Translations under genes and position numbers: made by a program
Assembly: GCF_030273445.1 (NCBI RefSeq)
Contig: NZ_CP120678.1
Span: 845,501 to 909,500, forward strand
DNA from: Selenobaculum gibii
Lineage (GTDB): Bacteria; Bacillota; Negativicutes; ICN-92133
Direction: 5' to 3'
Length of the DNA stretch: 64,000 bases
In this document: piece after piece, positions 55,164-63,914 of the stretch
Position numbering within the stretch: position 1 is the stretch's first letter
How the letters are laid out: the number at the start of each line of letters is the position of its first letter
Notes under the pieces: generated by a model
Databases searched by the model: none
Told to the model about the DNA's origin: nothing
What the model saw: only the letters and a program-made list of their open reading frames with translations

Positions 55164-55213
55164 AATCTTGTGGTATATTGTCGTCATTACCAAAGTCGAG
55201 GAGGAAAGAAATT

Positions 55214-56755
55214 TTGGAAAGTAAGCATCATGAAATGGTATTAATATTAGATTTCGGTGGTCAATATAATCAATTGATTGCCAGACGTGTAAGAGAATGT
55301 GGCGTTTATTGTGAAATAGTGCCTTATGATTATAGTATTGAAAAAATTAAAGCGAAAAATCCACGTGGTATTATTTTTACAGGTGGACCGAATAGCGTGT
55401 ATGGAGATGATACACCAAAAGCAGATCCACAAGTTTTTGAACTAGGAATTCCTGTACTTGGAATTTGTTATGGACACCAATTTATGGCATATACATTGGG
55501 CGGAGTAGTAGAAAGCCCAGATATTAGAGAATACGGAAAAACTGCAATTGCTTTAGATGGCGCATGCAAGTTATTTGAAGGAATTGATGCCGATAACGAA
55601 TGCTGGATGAGTCATACAGATTTTGTTTCTAAAGCACCAGCAGGCTTCAAAATTGTTGCAACTACGAAACAATGTCCAATTGCAGCAATGGCAAATAAAA
55701 CAAAAAAATTATATGGTGTACAATTCCATCCAGAAGTTGAACATACACCATATGGCAAAAAAATGTTGGCGAATTTCTTATTTGATGTTTGTGAATTAGA
55801 AGCAGATTGGAATATGTCTTCTTTTGCTGAGAGTAAAATCGCTGAAATTAAAAAAATCGTTGGCGATAAAAAAGTTTTATGTGCTTTATCCGGTGGTGTT
55901 GATTCCTCAGTTGCAGCAGTGCTTGTACATAAGGCTGTTGGTAAACAATTAACTTGTGTGTTCGTTGATCATGGCTTACTTAGAAAAGATGAGGGTGATC
56001 AAGTAGAGGCGATTTTTAGAGAACAATTCGATATGAACTTAATTCGTGTTGATGCAAAAGATCGTTTTCTTGGAAAACTTGCTGGGATATCTGATCCAGA
56101 GCGTAAACGTAAAATTATTGGTGAAGAATTCATTCGTGTATTTGAAGAAGAATCTAATAAACTTGGCAAAATTGATTTCCTAGTACAAGGTACAATTTAT
56201 CCAGACGTTGTTGAAAGTGGAACAAAAACCTCTGCGACAATTAAAAGTCATCATAACGTAGGTGGTTTGCCAGAAGATATGGATCTAGAATTGATTGAAC
56301 CACTTCGTGAATTGTTTAAAGATGAAGTTCGTGCGGTTGGTGAAGAATTGGGAATTCCACATCATTTAGTATGGCGTCAACCATTCCCAGGTCCAGGTCT
56401 TGCAATTCGTGTACTTGGTGAAATTACGGAAGAAAAACTATTTATCACGCGCGAAGCAGATGCAATCTTTAGAGATGAAGTTGCAAAAGCAGGCCTAGAA
56501 GGTAAGATATGGCAATACTTTGCTTGCTTGCCAAATATTCGTTCCGTAGGTGTTATGGGTGATGAAAGAACTTACTGTCACACAGTAGCACTAAGAGCAG
56601 TAACCAGTTCCGATGGAATGACTTCCGATTGGGCACATATTCCATACGAAGTATTAGATAAAATTTCCCGCCGTATCGTTAACGAAGTAAAAGGTGTAAA
56701 TAGAATTGTTTATGATATAACAAGTAAACCACCATCCACAATTGAGTGGGAGTAA
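55214..56755 (+). CDS. guaA: GMP synthase (glutamine-hydrolysing)
   Basis: A 513-residue two-domain enzyme. The glutaminase part has [11 protein letters not shown] and [11 protein letters not shown], the ATP-pyrophosphatase has [12 protein letters not shown], and the dimerisation domain ends KPPSTIEWE. It makes GMP from XMP. TTG 55214 follows GAGGAGG, while the frame is open to 55178. The tail is intact although mobile-element DNA begins six bases after the stop. Confidence 0.95.
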
Positions 56756-56760
56756 AATGA

Positions 56761-57012
56761 ATGTCGTAGGGCACTGCCATTTATGCTCCAAAGGGCAAAA
56801 TGGCTTAACCTGCCGACATAGAAAAAACGACCTTGCATTAAAGCTTTTCGAAGCTTGTGCAAGGTCATTTTTTTATCCTCAACCCGCGTAAATACAGGAA
56901 GTTCTGCTTGCTAAAAGAGGCGGGCACCATGGAGTGGCGGGCATTCCTGGCAAAGCCAGGGAGAATACAGGAAAATGCCCTTTGGAGAATAAATGGCAGT
57001 GCCCCACGACAT
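56761..57012. mobile_element. 252-bp unit with 37-bp inverted terminal repeats, beside guaA
   Basis: The left repeat 56761-56797 (ATGTCGTAGGGCACTGCC at its start) and the right repeat 56976-57012 match at 35 of 37 positions in inverted orientation. The left repeat is also half of a 59-bp imperfect palindrome ending TGCCGACAT at 56819, with GCCATTT/AAATGGC inside. The TGTCG...CGACA termini recall the TGT...ACA ends of Tn7-like elements. No coding frame of note lies within. No clear target duplication flanks it. It may be a transposon end, a MITE or a palindromic repeat pair. Confidence 0.6.
56829..56874 (+). terminator. Intrinsic terminator downstream of guaA
   Basis: GACCTTGCA (56829-56837) pairs with TGCAAGGTC (56858-56866), with AAGCTT/AAGCTT and a TTCG loop inside, followed by ATTTTTTT. 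It lies within the 252-bp inverted-repeat unit. Confidence 0.85.
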
Positions 57013-57236: not shown

Positions 57237-58484
57237 GTGAGGAAGAAAAATTTTAAAGGTCGTTGTGAAAAACGTGTCATTGCAAAGTGCAATGAAGTAT
57301 GCAGGACATACGATGCGATCCAGTATGTCTATGCAGATATTCTGCAAGCAAGTGATGAAGTAAAAGAAATCAGGTGCAATGTCCCGCTTAATGGGCGGGA
57401 CATTAGCGAATACACATCGGATTTTGTCTGCGTCAAGTCTGACAATGATTTGATGGTGCGTGAATGTGTGTTCCGCAAGTTTCTGATGAAGGCACTTACG
57501 GTCAAGCTGCTGGATGCTTCAAGGGAATACTGGTTAAGGCATGGGGTCACCGATTGGGGGTTAGTCATTGATGAGAAAAATGATTTGTTGAAGGACGGTG
57601 ACAACATTATCAGGGTTTTAGAGGTAAAGCCTGATAAAATCCTCATTATCGACTGCATCAAAAGGACTATGCCCGTATGGGTGGAATCTTCGGCTTTGGA
57701 TTCCTTCTCTTGCTGCACTGATGAAGTACTGAACCAGGCTACAAATTTTATCGTCACCGATATTGAAAATCTAAATGCTAATCAGAAAAGAATCATGTTT
57801 GAGCGTTATACATTAATTGCATCAATTTTCCCTTTTGTAGCAGAGGAAAGAATGCGTTCAAAAGTTATCGATTCTATAGATACAGAACACAACATATCTA
57901 AGCAGACCATCAGAAACTATTTATGCTTGTATTTGGTCTATATGAATATAATAGTCCTTGCCCCAAGGCAACGGCTAGACGATGATGGAAAGCTTACACA
58001 AGATGAAAAAAACATACGATGGGCTTTGAACAAATTCTTCTATACCACGAAAAAGCAATCACTTATGACTGCTTATACCATGATGCTGAAAGAGAAGTAT
58101 TGTGATAGTATGGATATTCTAGCAAACCAATACCCGTCTTTTTATCAATTTCGTTACTTCTACCGTAAAACAAAAAAGATGCAGAACTTCTATATTTCCA
58201 GAGATGGATTGAAGAGTTACCAGAGAAATAACAAGCCTCTTATTGGTGATAGCATACGGTCGTTTGCTCCTGCTATTGGCGCTGGTATGCTGTATTCTAC
58301 TATACTTGTTCAGAACGAACATATACATTTCCACCCCAGTGGTGATGCGCTGCCAATCCAAGAAGACATTACTATCATTAGAAAACTGGTCGAAGCAGGT
58401 AAGTTACTGGATATTAACATTTTGGACCATATTATTATCGGTAAGGGGAATTTTGAGAGTTTAAAAGAGCGAGGAATCTTGTGA
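57237..58484 (+). pseudogene. Chimeric remnant: Tn7-like TnsA/TnsB N-terminus joined to RadC C-terminus
   Basis: An open frame of 415 codons from GTG 57237 (GGAGGT at 57222-57227). Residues 1-114 resemble the TnsA endonuclease core of Clostridial Tn7-like elements: EYTSDF with D62, VRECVFRKFLMKALTVKLLDAS. Residues 115-345 resemble the DNA-binding part of TnsB (KILIIDCIKRTMPVWV, YPSFYQFRYFYRKTKK) and stop where the DDE catalytic domain should begin. Residues 350-415 are the end of a RadC/JAB protein: HPSGD at 366-370, then RKLVEAGKLLDINILDHIIIG. The join implies an internal deletion. The frame is open but unlikely to transpose. Confidence 0.7.
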
Positions 58485-58731
58485 TAAATAGTTTATCAAT
58501 ATTAAGAGGCTTATACTACATCTAAGCTGGATAAGACAATAAAAGTACCCTATTGTTGCATCGAGACAATGGTGTATTTCTGCTTTTTAAATTGGAAGTT
58601 TTCAATTGTTTAACCTTGCTGAAATTACTGGATTATCTAATTAGGTTCCTGCCAACATTTTGACCCAAATATACGCTAAGCTTCAATTTTGTTTTGTTAT
58701 TTCTGCGTTGAGGTTATCTATTTATGGGAAA
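58485..58731. other. Junction between Tn7-like remnant and GC-rich block
   Basis: 247 bases with stops in all frames. CTATTGTTGCATCGAGACAATGG (58552 onward, split here as CTATTGT and ACAATGG) forms a weak stem. I see no gene or promoter. Confidence 0.3.
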
Positions 58732-59319
58732 CTAACCTGCTCTATTTACGTCGATTCCGCTTACCATCATTTGCAAGTATTCTTTCGCCTGTGCCTTTGA
58801 GCACTCCTTTTTATCGAGATATTTCCATTCCAAGATAATCAATACCGCTTTACTGTATAGTTTTGCAGCCATCTCCTGCGGTATTTTGAATTGGTGGGTA
58901 TTCGGACTGCTTTTAAAAGCTGCCATCATATTTGTGATCAGATAAAAATGAATTTGATTGATAAAGTATTGATTCGGGCAATTATTCTTCAAAATATTCT
59001 GTACGATTTCAATGTTTTGGTCAAAGAAATCAATAAAGTTTTCCATCAGTGCGTTCAATCGTTTCTGACAATTACCTGTTTCTTGATTGCTGCTGTCAAT
59101 TTGCTTATGAACGGTCAAAAAACAGTATTCCAGAAAGTCATATTTATCATCGAAATAATTATAAAAGGTAGCTCGCGGCAGCATTGATTTTTCGCAAAGC
59201 TCTTGAACGGCAATTTCCTCGAAAGATTTTTCGGCGAGCAAGGTCAACATTGCTTGCTGCAAAGAAATGAGAGTCCGAGATGCGCCAATGGTTAATTTTT
59301 TAGATAAATCATACTTCAT
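58732..59319 (-). CDS. TetR/AcrR-family regulator
   Basis: A 195-residue protein. The helix-turn-helix lies at about 15-62 with FEEIAVQELCEKSMLPRATFYNYFDDKYDFLEY. The C-terminal ligand domain is not recognisable. ATG 59319 follows AGGAGGT. It is transcribed divergently from the aldehyde dehydrogenase operon 184 bases away and probably represses it. Confidence 0.88.
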   Translation of the reverse strand: MKYDLSKKLTIGASRTLISLQQAMLTLLAEKSFEEIAVQELCEKSMLPRATFYNYFDDKYDFLEYCFLTVHKQIDSSNQETGNCQKRLNALMENFIDFFDQNIEIVQNILKNNCPNQYFINQIHFYLITNMMAAFKSSPNTHQFKIPQEMAAKLYSKAVLIILEWKYLDKKECSKAQAKEYLQMMVSGIDVNRAG

Positions 59320-59503: not shown

Positions 59504-60871
59504 GTGGAATACAATGAAATTTTAGCGATGCAGAAAAATTTTTTTTATTCCGGTAAAACCAAGACGTATCAATACAGGCTGGATGCGTTAAAGGCGCTGA
59601 GGGAATCCCTAATTTATTATGAAGAAGAAATCAACCAAGCGCTTATGGACGATTTAAACAAATCGCCATATGAAACTTATATTTCTGAATACGGCATATC
59701 GCTGCAGCAGCTTACTTACGCAACCCGTCACCTGAAAAAATGGATGAAGCCAATACCCAGATCGGTTGGAATCAATTCATTTCCTGGCAAGGCTTATGAC
59801 ATCTTTGAGCCTTATGGCACAGCCCTCATCGTATCGTCTTGGAATTATCCCATTACACTGACCATCTTACCGCTAATCGGCGCTATAGCAGCGGGTAACT
59901 GCTGTGTCATTAAGCTGTCAGAATTGTCGCCGAACACATCAAACGTAGTCGAAAAGATTGTGGCACGCGCCTTTCCGAAAGAATATGTCACCACCATATT
60001 AGGTGGAAAAGAGGAAAGCCAGCAGCTTCTCGAACAGCGTTTTGATTACATCTTTTTTACCGGAAGCACCGCAGTAGGTAAGTATGTGATGGAAAAAGCG
60101 GCACAGCATCTTACTCCGGTGACACTTGAATTGGGTGGTAAATGCCCGTGTATCGTGACTGCCGATGCCGATATACGGGAGGCGGCAAAAAACATAGCGT
60201 ATGGCAAAGTTCTCAATAGCGGACAGACTTGTACCGCTCCGGATTACGTGTTGGTGTATGAAAAAGTAGCGGAACAGTTTTGCAGAGAAATTACAAATCA
60301 ATATAAAAAGATGGTTGGGGATTCGCTTACAAATCCGGTATATCCGCGCATTGTAACTGAAAGACACTTTGAACGGCTTCGACGCCTCATGGAAGAGGGA
60401 ACGGTTTATAGTGGAGGACATTTTGATCAAGGAGCGTTGAAAATAGAACCGACCGTCCTGGTCGATGTGAAGCCTGATTCTCCCGTGATGCGCGAAGAAA
60501 TATTCGGTCCCCTCCTCCCAGTCATTCCCTATAGCACGCTGGACGAGGCGGAGACATTTGTACAAGAGAGGGAAAAGCCGCTGGCGCTCTATCTCTTTAC
60601 AACAAGCAAAAGCACAGAAATAAGAGTACTTAACAAACTCTCCTTTGGCGGAGGCTGTGTAAATGACACGATTTCCCACATGACCTGCGATGGTCTGGGG
60701 TTTGGCGGGATCGGCCACAGCGGCATGGGAACGTACCACGGTGTATATAGCTTTGAGGCCTTCAGCCACAAGAAAGGGATTTATAAAAAATCCAGGGTGT
60801 TTGGGCTGTCGCTGCGATACCAGCCATATGCCCAGAAAGTAAGCAGGCTGCTTAGGTTCTTGATGAAATAA
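59504..60871 (+). CDS. Aldehyde dehydrogenase (fatty/coniferyl aldehyde type)
   Basis: A 455-residue NAD(P)-dependent ALDH. Catalytic C243 is in NSGQTCTAPDYV, the general base E209 in LELGGKCP, and cofactor-site FTGSTAVGK precedes them. The closing segment FGGIGHSGMGTYHG is typical of class 3 enzymes with broad aldehyde range. GTG 59504 follows AAAGGTGAGG. G+C is visibly higher than in the chromosomal core. It opens a set of three redox genes behind the TetR gene. Confidence 0.9.
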   Translation: MEYNEILAMQKNFFYSGKTKTYQYRLDALKALRESLIYYEEEINQALMDDLNKSPYETYISEYGISLQQLTYATRHLKKWMKPIPRSVGINSFPGKAYDIFEPYGTALIVSSWNYPITLTILPLIGAIAAGNCCVIKLSELSPNTSNVVEKIVARAFPKEYVTTILGGKEESQQLLEQRFDYIFFTGSTAVGKYVMEKAAQHLTPVTLELGGKCPCIVTADADIREAAKNIAYGKVLNSGQTCTAPDYVLVYEKVAEQFCREITNQYKKMVGDSLTNPVYPRIVTERHFERLRRLMEEGTVYSGGHFDQGALKIEPTVLVDVKPDSPVMREEIFGPLLPVIPYSTLDEAETFVQEREKPLALYLFTTSKSTEIRVLNKLSFGGGCVNDTISHMTCDGLGFGGIGHSGMGTYHGVYSFEAFSHKKGIYKKSRVFGLSLRYQPYAQKVSRLLRFLMK

Positions 60872-60916
60872 GTGTAAATTCGTATTTCAAAAACAAACAG
60901 AAAAGAGGGTAAAGGG

Positions 60917-63031
60917 ATGAGGTATCCAAATTTATTTTCACCCATGAATATTGGTTCAGTGACCATCAAAAACCGAATTGTGATGTCCTCCATGTGCATT
61001 GGATTGGCGGCGCATGACGGCGCGGCGAGCAAAGAATTATCCGACTATTATGAAGAACGCGCCGCCGGAGGCGTGGGTCTTATCATGACAGAATGTACCC
61101 GCGTCAATGAGACGGATTGCGTGTCCCATTCTAGCATGTTATCCATGTCACACGACAGATATATTGAGCCGTTTCGCAGAATCACGGAAAAGGTGCATGC
61201 CCATGGCACTAAGATTTTTGTTCAATTGTTTCATCCCGGTCGGCAAAACGTGGTTATTTTCCCAACGCTGTGGCAATTCAATGAGAGAGTTGCAAGGATT
61301 TTTCCTCCATATTGGGATTTATTTTTTAAAGCCACCGGTAGCTTTGATGAATCCGCCATGGAAGATCCCAAAACCGTGAAGCGGATGAAGCGCTATATGA
61401 AGCCGCTCCTTGCACCAAGCGCTGTTCCTTGTGGCCTTGGTGACAATCCTATTCGTAATCAAACTACCATTGCCATGACAATACCTCAGATTAAAACACT
61501 GGTCAGCCAGTTTTCCGCCGCTGCGAAACGGGCGAAAAAAGCCGGAGCCGATGGCGTGGAGCTACACGCTGCCCATGGATATTTGCTGCAGCAGTTTTTA
61601 AGTTCCTACACTAACCGTCGTACGGATGAATACGGTGGCTCTCCGGAAAACCGGATGCGACTCATTCAGGAGATTATAGAGGACATCCGCCAAAAGTGCG
61701 GGGCTGATTTTCCCATCAGTGTGCGATTGACAGCAGATGAGTTCTATGACACGATTGGTTATCCCGGTCAAGGGATCACCTTGGGTGAGGGCGTAGAGAT
61801 TGCGAAACGGCTGGAGCAGTTCGGAATTGACGCGCTCAATATCAGCAGCGGCGCTTACGATACGGAGCACACCTCCTGCGAACCAATCAGCTATGAACCC
61901 GGCTGGCGCAAGTATTTGGCGAAAGCTGTTAAGGGAGAGGTCAGCATTCCGGTAATGGCGGCTAATTTGATCCGCTCTCCGGAACAGGCGGAAGCGCAGC
62001 TCGTGGAAGGAACCCAAGACTTCATCGCCATGGGGCGGCCTTTCCTCGCTGACCCTGAATGGTCCAATAAAGCGAAGGAGGGGCGCAGCGAGGATATCCT
62101 TAAGTGTATTTGCTGCCTGCGTTGTATGGAATGTTTACGTAAAAACATCATGAACGGCCAGCCGATTGAATGTGCCGTCAATCCCCGCACCTGTCAGGAA
62201 AATAAATATGAACGCAATGCACCGAAAGATGGTCATCAGCGGCAGATCGTCATTGTGGGCGCTGGCCCGGCGGGCTTAACAGCGGCAAGAGAACTGGCGG
62301 CGCGGGACTTCAAGGTAACCGTACTGGAAAAGAATGCAGAACCCGGCGGTCAGCTTCTCTTGGCGAAATCGCCGCCGCATAAGGAGAAAATCGGTTGGCT
62401 CATTGAGGGATTAACCCATTTGGCAACTCAGCAGGGTGTAACAATTGAGTACAATATCGAAGCCACCAAAGAAGTTATTGATACGTATCATCCCCATGCC
62501 GTGATCTTCGCAACCGGCGGAGAGGCAATCTCACCGAGAATATCGGGATCAGAATCAGAATCGGTTGTCACGGTGACGCCGATTTTGACAGGGGAAAAAA
62601 CCTACTCCAATAAGAAGATTGCCGTTGTCGGCTCCGGTATGACCGGGCTGGAGACAGCGGAATTACTGTTGGAACAAGGGAATACCATCACTGTAATTGA
62701 GATGGTGGATAAAATCGCTCTCGGCGCACATCCTTCTAACTCTATGGATGTAGTTAAAAGATTAAAACAGGGGAATGTTAGATTTTTCCTTGGCAGGCGG
62801 TTGGATCAAATCGACGATGGCATGCTGCACCTGAGCCGGAAAGACGGCGTTCTTGAATCAATCAGTACGGATGTGACGGTGCTTGCCACTGGTGTACGTA
62901 GTTGCAACAGGCTGGCAAAGGAATGCTTCGGCCATTATGATCATCTTTATACCATCGGCGACGCAGAAAAAACCGGACGCATCGGCGACGCGACTCGCGG
63001 AGCTTTCGAGCTGGCACGCTCTTTACATTGA
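60917..63031 (+). CDS. Old-yellow-enzyme/2,4-dienoyl-CoA reductase-type iron-sulfur flavoprotein
   Basis: 704 residues. An FMN TIM barrel (about 1-380) starts NLFSPMNIGSVTIKNRIVMSS and has ELHAAHGYLLQQFLS. The 4Fe-4S cysteines lie in CICCLRCMECLRKN (C397-C406). An FAD domain begins VIVGAGPAGLTAARE near 445, and an NAD(P) domain has AVVGSGMTGLETAELL near 572. The family reduces conjugated enoyl or enal compounds. A segment at about 112-150 (LWQFNERVARIFPPYWD) looks like an insertion relative to FadH. The ribosome site is AAAGGG before ATG 60917. It is about half G+C, unlike its chromosomal surroundings. Confidence 0.88.
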   Translation: MRYPNLFSPMNIGSVTIKNRIVMSSMCIGLAAHDGAASKELSDYYEERAAGGVGLIMTECTRVNETDCVSHSSMLSMSHDRYIEPFRRITEKVHAHGTKIFVQLFHPGRQNVVIFPTLWQFNERVARIFPPYWDLFFKATGSFDESAMEDPKTVKRMKRYMKPLLAPSAVPCGLGDNPIRNQTTIAMTIPQIKTLVSQFSAAAKRAKKAGADGVELHAAHGYLLQQFLSSYTNRRTDEYGGSPENRMRLIQEIIEDIRQKCGADFPISVRLTADEFYDTIGYPGQGITLGEGVEIAKRLEQFGIDALNISSGAYDTEHTSCEPISYEPGWRKYLAKAVKGEVSIPVMAANLIRSPEQAEAQLVEGTQDFIAMGRPFLADPEWSNKAKEGRSEDILKCICCLRCMECLRKNIMNGQPIECAVNPRTCQENKYERNAPKDGHQRQIVIVGAGPAGLTAARELAARDFKVTVLEKNAEPGGQLLLAKSPPHKEKIGWLIEGLTHLATQQGVTIEYNIEATKEVIDTYHPHAVIFATGGEAISPRISGSESESVVTVTPILTGEKTYSNKKIAVVGSGMTGLETAELLLEQGNTITVIEMVDKIALGAHPSNSMDVVKRLKQGNVRFFLGRRLDQIDDGMLHLSRKDGVLESISTDVTVLATGVRSCNRLAKECFGHYDHLYTIGDAEKTGRIGDATRGAFELARSLH

Positions 63032-63119
63032 TGTTACCCATAATCGTGAATTATTTGGAAAAATGAAAAAGCTGGTAGTTGACATCGAAATAGTAATGAA
63101 TCATTTGGAGGAATAAGAA

Positions 63120-63914
63120 ATGTCAGATTGTATTCGAATTGATAAAGCCGCTTGCATTGGCTGTGGAATGTGCGTGAAGGATTGTCCGCACCATGCCATT
63201 GTTTTGAAGGATAAAATAGCTGAAATGAAACTTGATCGTTGCATGGAATGCGGTCACTGCGTTGCGGTCTGTCCAAAAGCTGCCGTCAGCATGAATGGCT
63301 ATGCTATGGACGAGGTAAAAGAATATGATAGGGATACTTTTACCATCGCGCCTGAAACCTTCCTCAATAACATAAAGTTCAGACGCTCCATCAGGCATTA
63401 TAAGAATATGCCTGTAGAACATGAAAAAATCATGCAGATAATTGATGCTGGAAGGTACACCCCTACGGGAAGCAATAAGCAGCGGATACGTTATGTTGTT
63501 GCTGAACACCCGGAGGATAATATCGAAAAGGACGCAATCATAACCTTTCGGAAGATAAAGTCCGTAACCGATGTGGTTGGTAAATTCATTAAGTTACCGA
63601 TTGATACGAGAAAATATCAAGTTGATAAAGGGTTTTTCTTCCAGGGGGCGCCAACAGCTATTTTTGTAATATCCGATGATACGGTCGATGCTGCATTGGC
63701 TTCAACAAATATGGGTACTATGGCTGAATCACTTGGTCTTGGTGTATTATATGTTGGATTCTTTGTACGAGCTGCACGAATAAATAAAACTATCCGCAAA
63801 AAGCTATCGATTACAGGGAAAGAACGATTGGTAACTGCTATTGCTATTGGCTATCCTGATGCTCATTACAAGCGGACTGTTCCGAGAAAACCAGCAAAAG
63901 TGCAATGGCTGTAA
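63120..63914 (+). CDS. Ferredoxin-nitroreductase fusion protein
   Basis: 264 residues. The N-terminal 2[4Fe-4S] ferredoxin has CIGCGMCVKDCP and CMECGHCVAVCP. The nitroreductase FMN domain begins RRSIRHYKNMPVEHEKI with PTGSNKQ. It likely takes electrons through its own clusters and reduces nitro or enone compounds. GGAGGAATAAGAA precedes ATG 63120. It is the third gene of the redox block. The 88 bases before it hold a short open frame (ending NHLEE) that I cannot assign. Confidence 0.88.
   Translation: MSDCIRIDKAACIGCGMCVKDCPHHAIVLKDKIAEMKLDRCMECGHCVAVCPKAAVSMNGYAMDEVKEYDRDTFTIAPETFLNNIKFRRSIRHYKNMPVEHEKIMQIIDAGRYTPTGSNKQRIRYVVAEHPEDNIEKDAIITFRKIKSVTDVVGKFIKLPIDTRKYQVDKGFFFQGAPTAIFVISDDTVDAALASTNMGTMAESLGLGVLYVGFFVRAARINKTIRKKLSITGKERLVTAIAIGYPDAHYKRTVPRKPAKVQWL

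Follow-up and report, generated by a model that had tools for sequence, protein, structure and literature searches.

The uninterrupted 415-codon reading frame at 57237–58484 on the forward strand of the window (the 64,000-nucleotide stretch of Selenobaculum gibii DNA analyzed here) is very probably a fusion pseudogene located inside a dead Tn7-like transposon. The frame, which was taken from the ORF listing of the window, starts with GTG behind the ribosome-binding site ATGGAGG and encodes, in order, TnsA, 40% of TnsB from the N-terminal side, and a C-terminal stretch of ∼60 RadC residues. Strong homologues were found for all three parts; this rules out a chance open frame and bears out the preliminary description of three unrelated domains joined in one frame. 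The similarity to TnsA and TnsB is genuine, and no second case of the three-part fusion was found among 76 genome-contig loci, 60 relatives, and 9 viral-contig loci, so that a conserved fusion gene is also ruled out. Among plasmids, nothing was found beyond weak TnsB matches in two Stenotrophomonas plasmids. Modeling of the whole fusion gave a low-confidence structure (pLDDT 49), which carries little information for or against function.

Table 1. Features in and around the fused frame (window coordinates)
Feature	Position	Strand	Remarks
guaA (GMP synthase), host gene	55178..56755	+	ORF; same position in L008, L010, L012, L059, and others
Proximal transposon end, 250-bp unit	56762..57011	.	Inverted repeats TGTCGTAGGGCACTGCCATTTAT / ATAAATGGCAGTGCCCCACGACA at borders; hairpin and T-run inside
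tnsA part of fused frame	57237..57575	+	GTG start; whole family TnsA minus last 2 residues
tnsA/tnsB overlap with one-base deletion	57570..57600	+	GATGAGAAAAATG versus GATGAAGAAAAATG in L059 and L012
5′ part of tnsB	57578..58304	+	First catalytic Asp codon is TAT (Tyr); remaining DDE domain absent
3′ end of radC	58305..58484	+	15 extra bases (GAACATATACATTTC) directly ahead of HPSGD
3′ flank of radC donor	58485..58572	+	Homology 58332–58572 to L096
TetR-like regulator, probable cargo	58732..59319	-	Pfam TetR_N 4.1e-5, just under cut-off
Cargo: aldehyde dehydrogenase, flavin oxidoreductase (Oxidored_FMN), ferredoxin-nitroreductase	59504..63914	+	

Three gene segments and their two joints

Close relatives encode a tnsA product of 115 aa, to which residues 1–113 of the fused frame are 90–96% identical. 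An AlphaFold model built for TnsA of a relative had a pLDDT of 95; in a Foldseek comparison, its sole significant matches were the Tn7 TnsA crystal structures 1t0f and 1f1z (E 6.5e-6, TM 0.76). Pfam PF08722, the TnsA N-terminal domain, was matched by 11 of 14 family members (best E 2.3e-5), whereas a PDB search with the TnsA sequence profile gave nothing significant. The fold match and PF08722 identify this part of the island as the TnsA endonuclease of a Tn7-like transposon. It had initially been described as a TnsA-like nuclease core. The identity as TnsA stands, but a core remaining after deletion is ruled out, since TnsA is ∼115 aa throughout the whole family and is complete here. Tn7 TnsA is 273 aa long, whereas the protein of this family consists of the nuclease domain only.

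Residues ∼115–355 are 80% identical to residues 7–250 of a 613-aa TnsB, which itself matches Tn7 TnsB with an E value of 8e-39. Homology between the window and its relatives ends near 58304, leaving the pre-catalytic part, in agreement with the earlier reading of a TnsB DNA-binding half without its catalytic domain; the relatives contain the DDE domain. The LDST motif of the relatives aligns with IDAT of Tn7 TnsB, and the GAT codon of the first DDE aspartate has become TAT at 58293–58295 in the window.

Separate tnsA and tnsB genes overlapping by 14 bases are present in ten close loci from Sporomusa, Pelosinus, Pectinatus, Propionispira, and Megamonas, and nearly all relatives encode the two proteins by two genes. 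The window overlap is one A short (Table 1), and tnsB consequently runs on in the tnsA frame. A sequencing error at this position, with only the tnsB-radC fusion being real, is unlikely but deserves the most weight among the alternatives: only one A is involved, such errors are common in long reads, and the assembly is a single contig. Such an error would leave the conclusion unchanged because tnsB is truncated and its catalytic aspartate lost in any case.

An in-frame tnsA-tnsB joint at the same point (..VIDEKHDLLRSGD..) is also present in L015 (10001–10799), on a contig that breaks off too early for its function to be judged; this recurrence could suggest tolerance of a TnsAB fusion. Natural TnsAB fusion transposases have been reported for CAST I-B2 and I-D (PMC10293859). 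As in those proteins, TnsA is joined to the TnsB N-terminus in one frame. In contrast to them, the window owes its joint to a recent accident of one base in a single genome, the genes are still separate in the relatives, and TnsB lacks its catalytic half.

Residues ∼356–415 match Pfam PF04002 (E 1.4e-14) and are 77% identical to RadC of L096, which substantiates the RadC tail with HPSGD that had been noted. Resemblance to RadC/JAB-domain proteins covers ∼52 residues at the C-terminus, among them HPSGD and the LLDI-ILDHIIIG stretch, but the front two thirds of such proteins are gone. The window contains QNEHIHFHPSGD where intact RadC has HNHPSGD (the native version in L086 is ATTCTCATTCACAACCATCCCAG): the first His of HxH is Gln, and five residues have been added ahead of HPSGD. 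The segment thus has neither an intact JAB/MPN HxHPSGD motif nor the N-terminal half of the family. Both the catalytic core of TnsB and the metal motif of RadC have therefore been lost.

The island behind guaA and the source of radC

The element begins 6 bp past the guaA stop codon and forms an island of 14.1 kb (window coordinates 56762–70892) between guaA and purE. Terminal inverted repeats are paired at both island borders, 56762 and 70892. The distal end, which the preliminary description had suggested seeking beyond 64 kb, was located there, 6.9 kb outside the window, with purE, purC, and purF next. The 250-bp end unit is conserved 5′ of tnsA in dozens of relatives and recurs beyond the window in the same genome as a truncated copy at 64246–64452 and a complete copy at 70617–70892 (window coordinates). 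The left flank of the island reads ATGAA and the right flank CGAC+ATGAA, which misses a perfect 5-bp duplication by one base; in Pelosinus UBA6563 (L059/L075), whose ends lie on separate contigs, a clean 5-bp repeat, CAATA, is present at both ends.

Each transposon end consists of a 250-bp unit that contains both terminal inverted repeats, present as direct copies at the two borders, and encloses a terminator-like hairpin. The conserved block TATAATAATTGTAACAAGGTCGAGGATACTA precedes the distal copy, and an Rfam search of the end unit matched no known RNA. Further units are present in L027 (9562–9810 and 19734–19982), L075 (6775–7023), and L036 (9286–9547 and 9552–9813). In the second half of the island, a nitroreductase segment is duplicated (96.5% identical) at 68225–68742 and 69484–70336 (window coordinates), with tannase-like and rep-like fragments between the two copies.

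Searches of the window genome for tnsC, tniQ, and another tnsB found none of them; the tnsC query had a positive control in two relatives, and the tniQ query, with no separate control of this kind, recovers tniQ from the related loci. The TnsC ATPase and the TniQ/TnsD target selector, both present in relatives, are absent from the genome. The island is Tn7-like by its relatives, its TnsA, its ends, and its site, but a working TnsB, TnsC, and TniQ are not part of it.

The radC genes closest to the fused tail are mobile-type copies adjoining a resolvase gene and, variously, primase/helicase-like and rep-like genes (L094–L096), and the homology with L096 extends past the stop codon of the frame up to 58572. 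A rep fragment at 68877–69027 of the same island is related to the rep gene adjoining radC in L095, and rep/prim/resolvase homologues are found 7–10 kb from tnsA in other copies of the element (L019, L023, L024). Thus the element probably carried radC as cargo and did not meet it as a resident gene. That the element instead inserted into a radC already resident in the chromosome, or reached one by deletion, is improbable, even though mobile-type radC genes with an adjoining resolvase exist outside guaA islands (L094–L096). The radC segment lies inside the element ends together with the rep-related fragment, the island still has the native genes guaA and purE on either side, five other radC-like genes are located elsewhere in the genome, and Tn7-like elements use one fixed site, normally without capturing neighbours. 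The original proposal that the element collapsed onto a radC gene by internal deletion therefore holds for the deletion into radC, but the tnsA/tnsB joint is a one-base deletion in a gene overlap rather than a loss of protein domains, and radC was probably carried by the element.

Complete relatives and their attachment sites

Complete tnsA-tnsB-tnsC-tniQ elements are located behind guaA in Pelosinus, Sporomusa, Propionispira, and Pectinatus, in the order guaA, 250-bp unit, tnsA, tnsB, tnsC (TniB/AAA), and tniQ. These are the intact copies whose existence in relatives was proposed as a check, and the reading of a Tn7-like element behind guaA is supported. The site is a fixed one, occupied in the window and in many relatives. 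Shared with Tn7 and Tn7-like elements (TnsA, TnsB, TnsC, TnsD/TniQ) are the gene set and order of the relatives, the TnsA fold, the similarity of TnsB to Tn7 TnsB, insertion directly behind a conserved gene, paired ends, and the 5-bp target duplication in one relative. The differences from Tn7 are, besides the short TnsA, attachment at guaA (or ppdK) rather than glmS, an end formed by a 250-bp unit with repeats at both its borders, and, for the window copy, the loss of tnsC, tniQ, and most of tnsB. In the open-access literature, of which coverage was partial, we found no description of guaA as a Tn7-like attachment site, which is weak evidence.

Decayed copies are frequent in the family, with a stop in tnsA of L011 and, besides the joint in L015, other independent truncations or fusions in L017, L040, L060, and L072. 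Units behind guaA that lack a tns operon occur in L146 (4065–4182; G037), L140 (4048–4416; G009), and L141 (3426–3983; G004), one of which retains 26 codons of tnsA; these relics are likely scars of lost elements.

Elements at the guaA site (guaA 3′ end ..TIEWE*) were identified in L007, L008, L010, L012, L013, L020, L059, and L097. A second set (L018, L019, L021, L026, L027, L030–L033, L038, L041, and L060) follows a gene that we take to be ppdK from its C-terminus (..AAQAAI..*). TniQ proteins of guaA-site elements, including that of L020, which comes from a distant lineage, are 67–100% identical to L010 TniQ, whereas the ppdK-site elements encode a different TniQ with 27–30% identity to it. 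The L020 TnsB (74%) and TnsC (75%) are about as distant from those of L010 as are those of the ppdK group. By these sequence comparisons, TniQ type tracks the attachment site and TnsB/TnsC do not.

Probable decay of the fused gene and its meaning

The intact ancestor would have consisted of guaA, the proximal end, tnsA-tnsB-tnsC-tniQ, cargo with a radC/rep module in it, the distal end, and the purE side. One A would then have been lost from the 14-base tnsA/tnsB overlap, placing tnsB in the tnsA frame, and a deletion from about codon 240 of tnsB into the 3′ part of radC would have taken the remainder of tnsB, tnsC, tniQ, and the front of radC. Point changes, including those at the first catalytic Asp of TnsB and in the RadC metal motif, may have followed. 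On its own, the element can no longer transpose.

Set against a pseudogene are the open frame, the retention of a good ribosome-binding site, and a TnsA part without a stop. The frame is still open because its pieces are real genes and both joints keep the frame by chance (a probability of ∼1/3 each). Private substitutions were counted in the window and in nine relatives. The window carries 14 nonsynonymous and 5 synonymous private changes, compared with 63 and 72 in the relatives (Fisher p = 0.048; p = 0.026 when L011, which has a nonsense codon, is left out). These marginal values give modest evidence of relaxed constraint.

The preliminary description had also suggested that the product might bind the transposon ends and interfere with related elements. 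In the fullest form of this idea, the frame would encode a domesticated protein that is expressed, uses the TnsB N-terminal domains to bind the 250-bp units, and keeps related elements from entering or moving at guaA. The open frame with its ribosome-binding site, the 80% identical pre-catalytic TnsB part, and the three end units still in the island are compatible with this proposal. However, the substitutions look like decay, P86A, A31V, and others fall at residues that are fixed in nine close relatives, the fusion is found in no other strain or species, and no related active element remains in the window genome. We regard domestication as very improbable, and end binding with interference is not supported. 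Slightly less credible still is a decoy role, for which the retained TnsB part is the only positive support: the fused protein would still be made and would sit on the 250-bp end units, keep the element silent, and shield the guaA site from incoming relatives.

As a fusion pseudogene, the frame shows how a Tn7-like island dies, and it is a caution that a long frame uniting unrelated domains may be mere decay. The element belongs to a Tn7-like family of Negativicutes and Clostridia with a nuclease-domain-only TnsA and double-ended 250-bp terminal units. Each of its two sites, the 3′ ends of guaA and ppdK, has a TniQ type of its own while the TnsB/TnsC core is similar, which provides a natural test of target-selector swapping. 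This site-tracking TniQ family may deserve more attention than the fusion itself.
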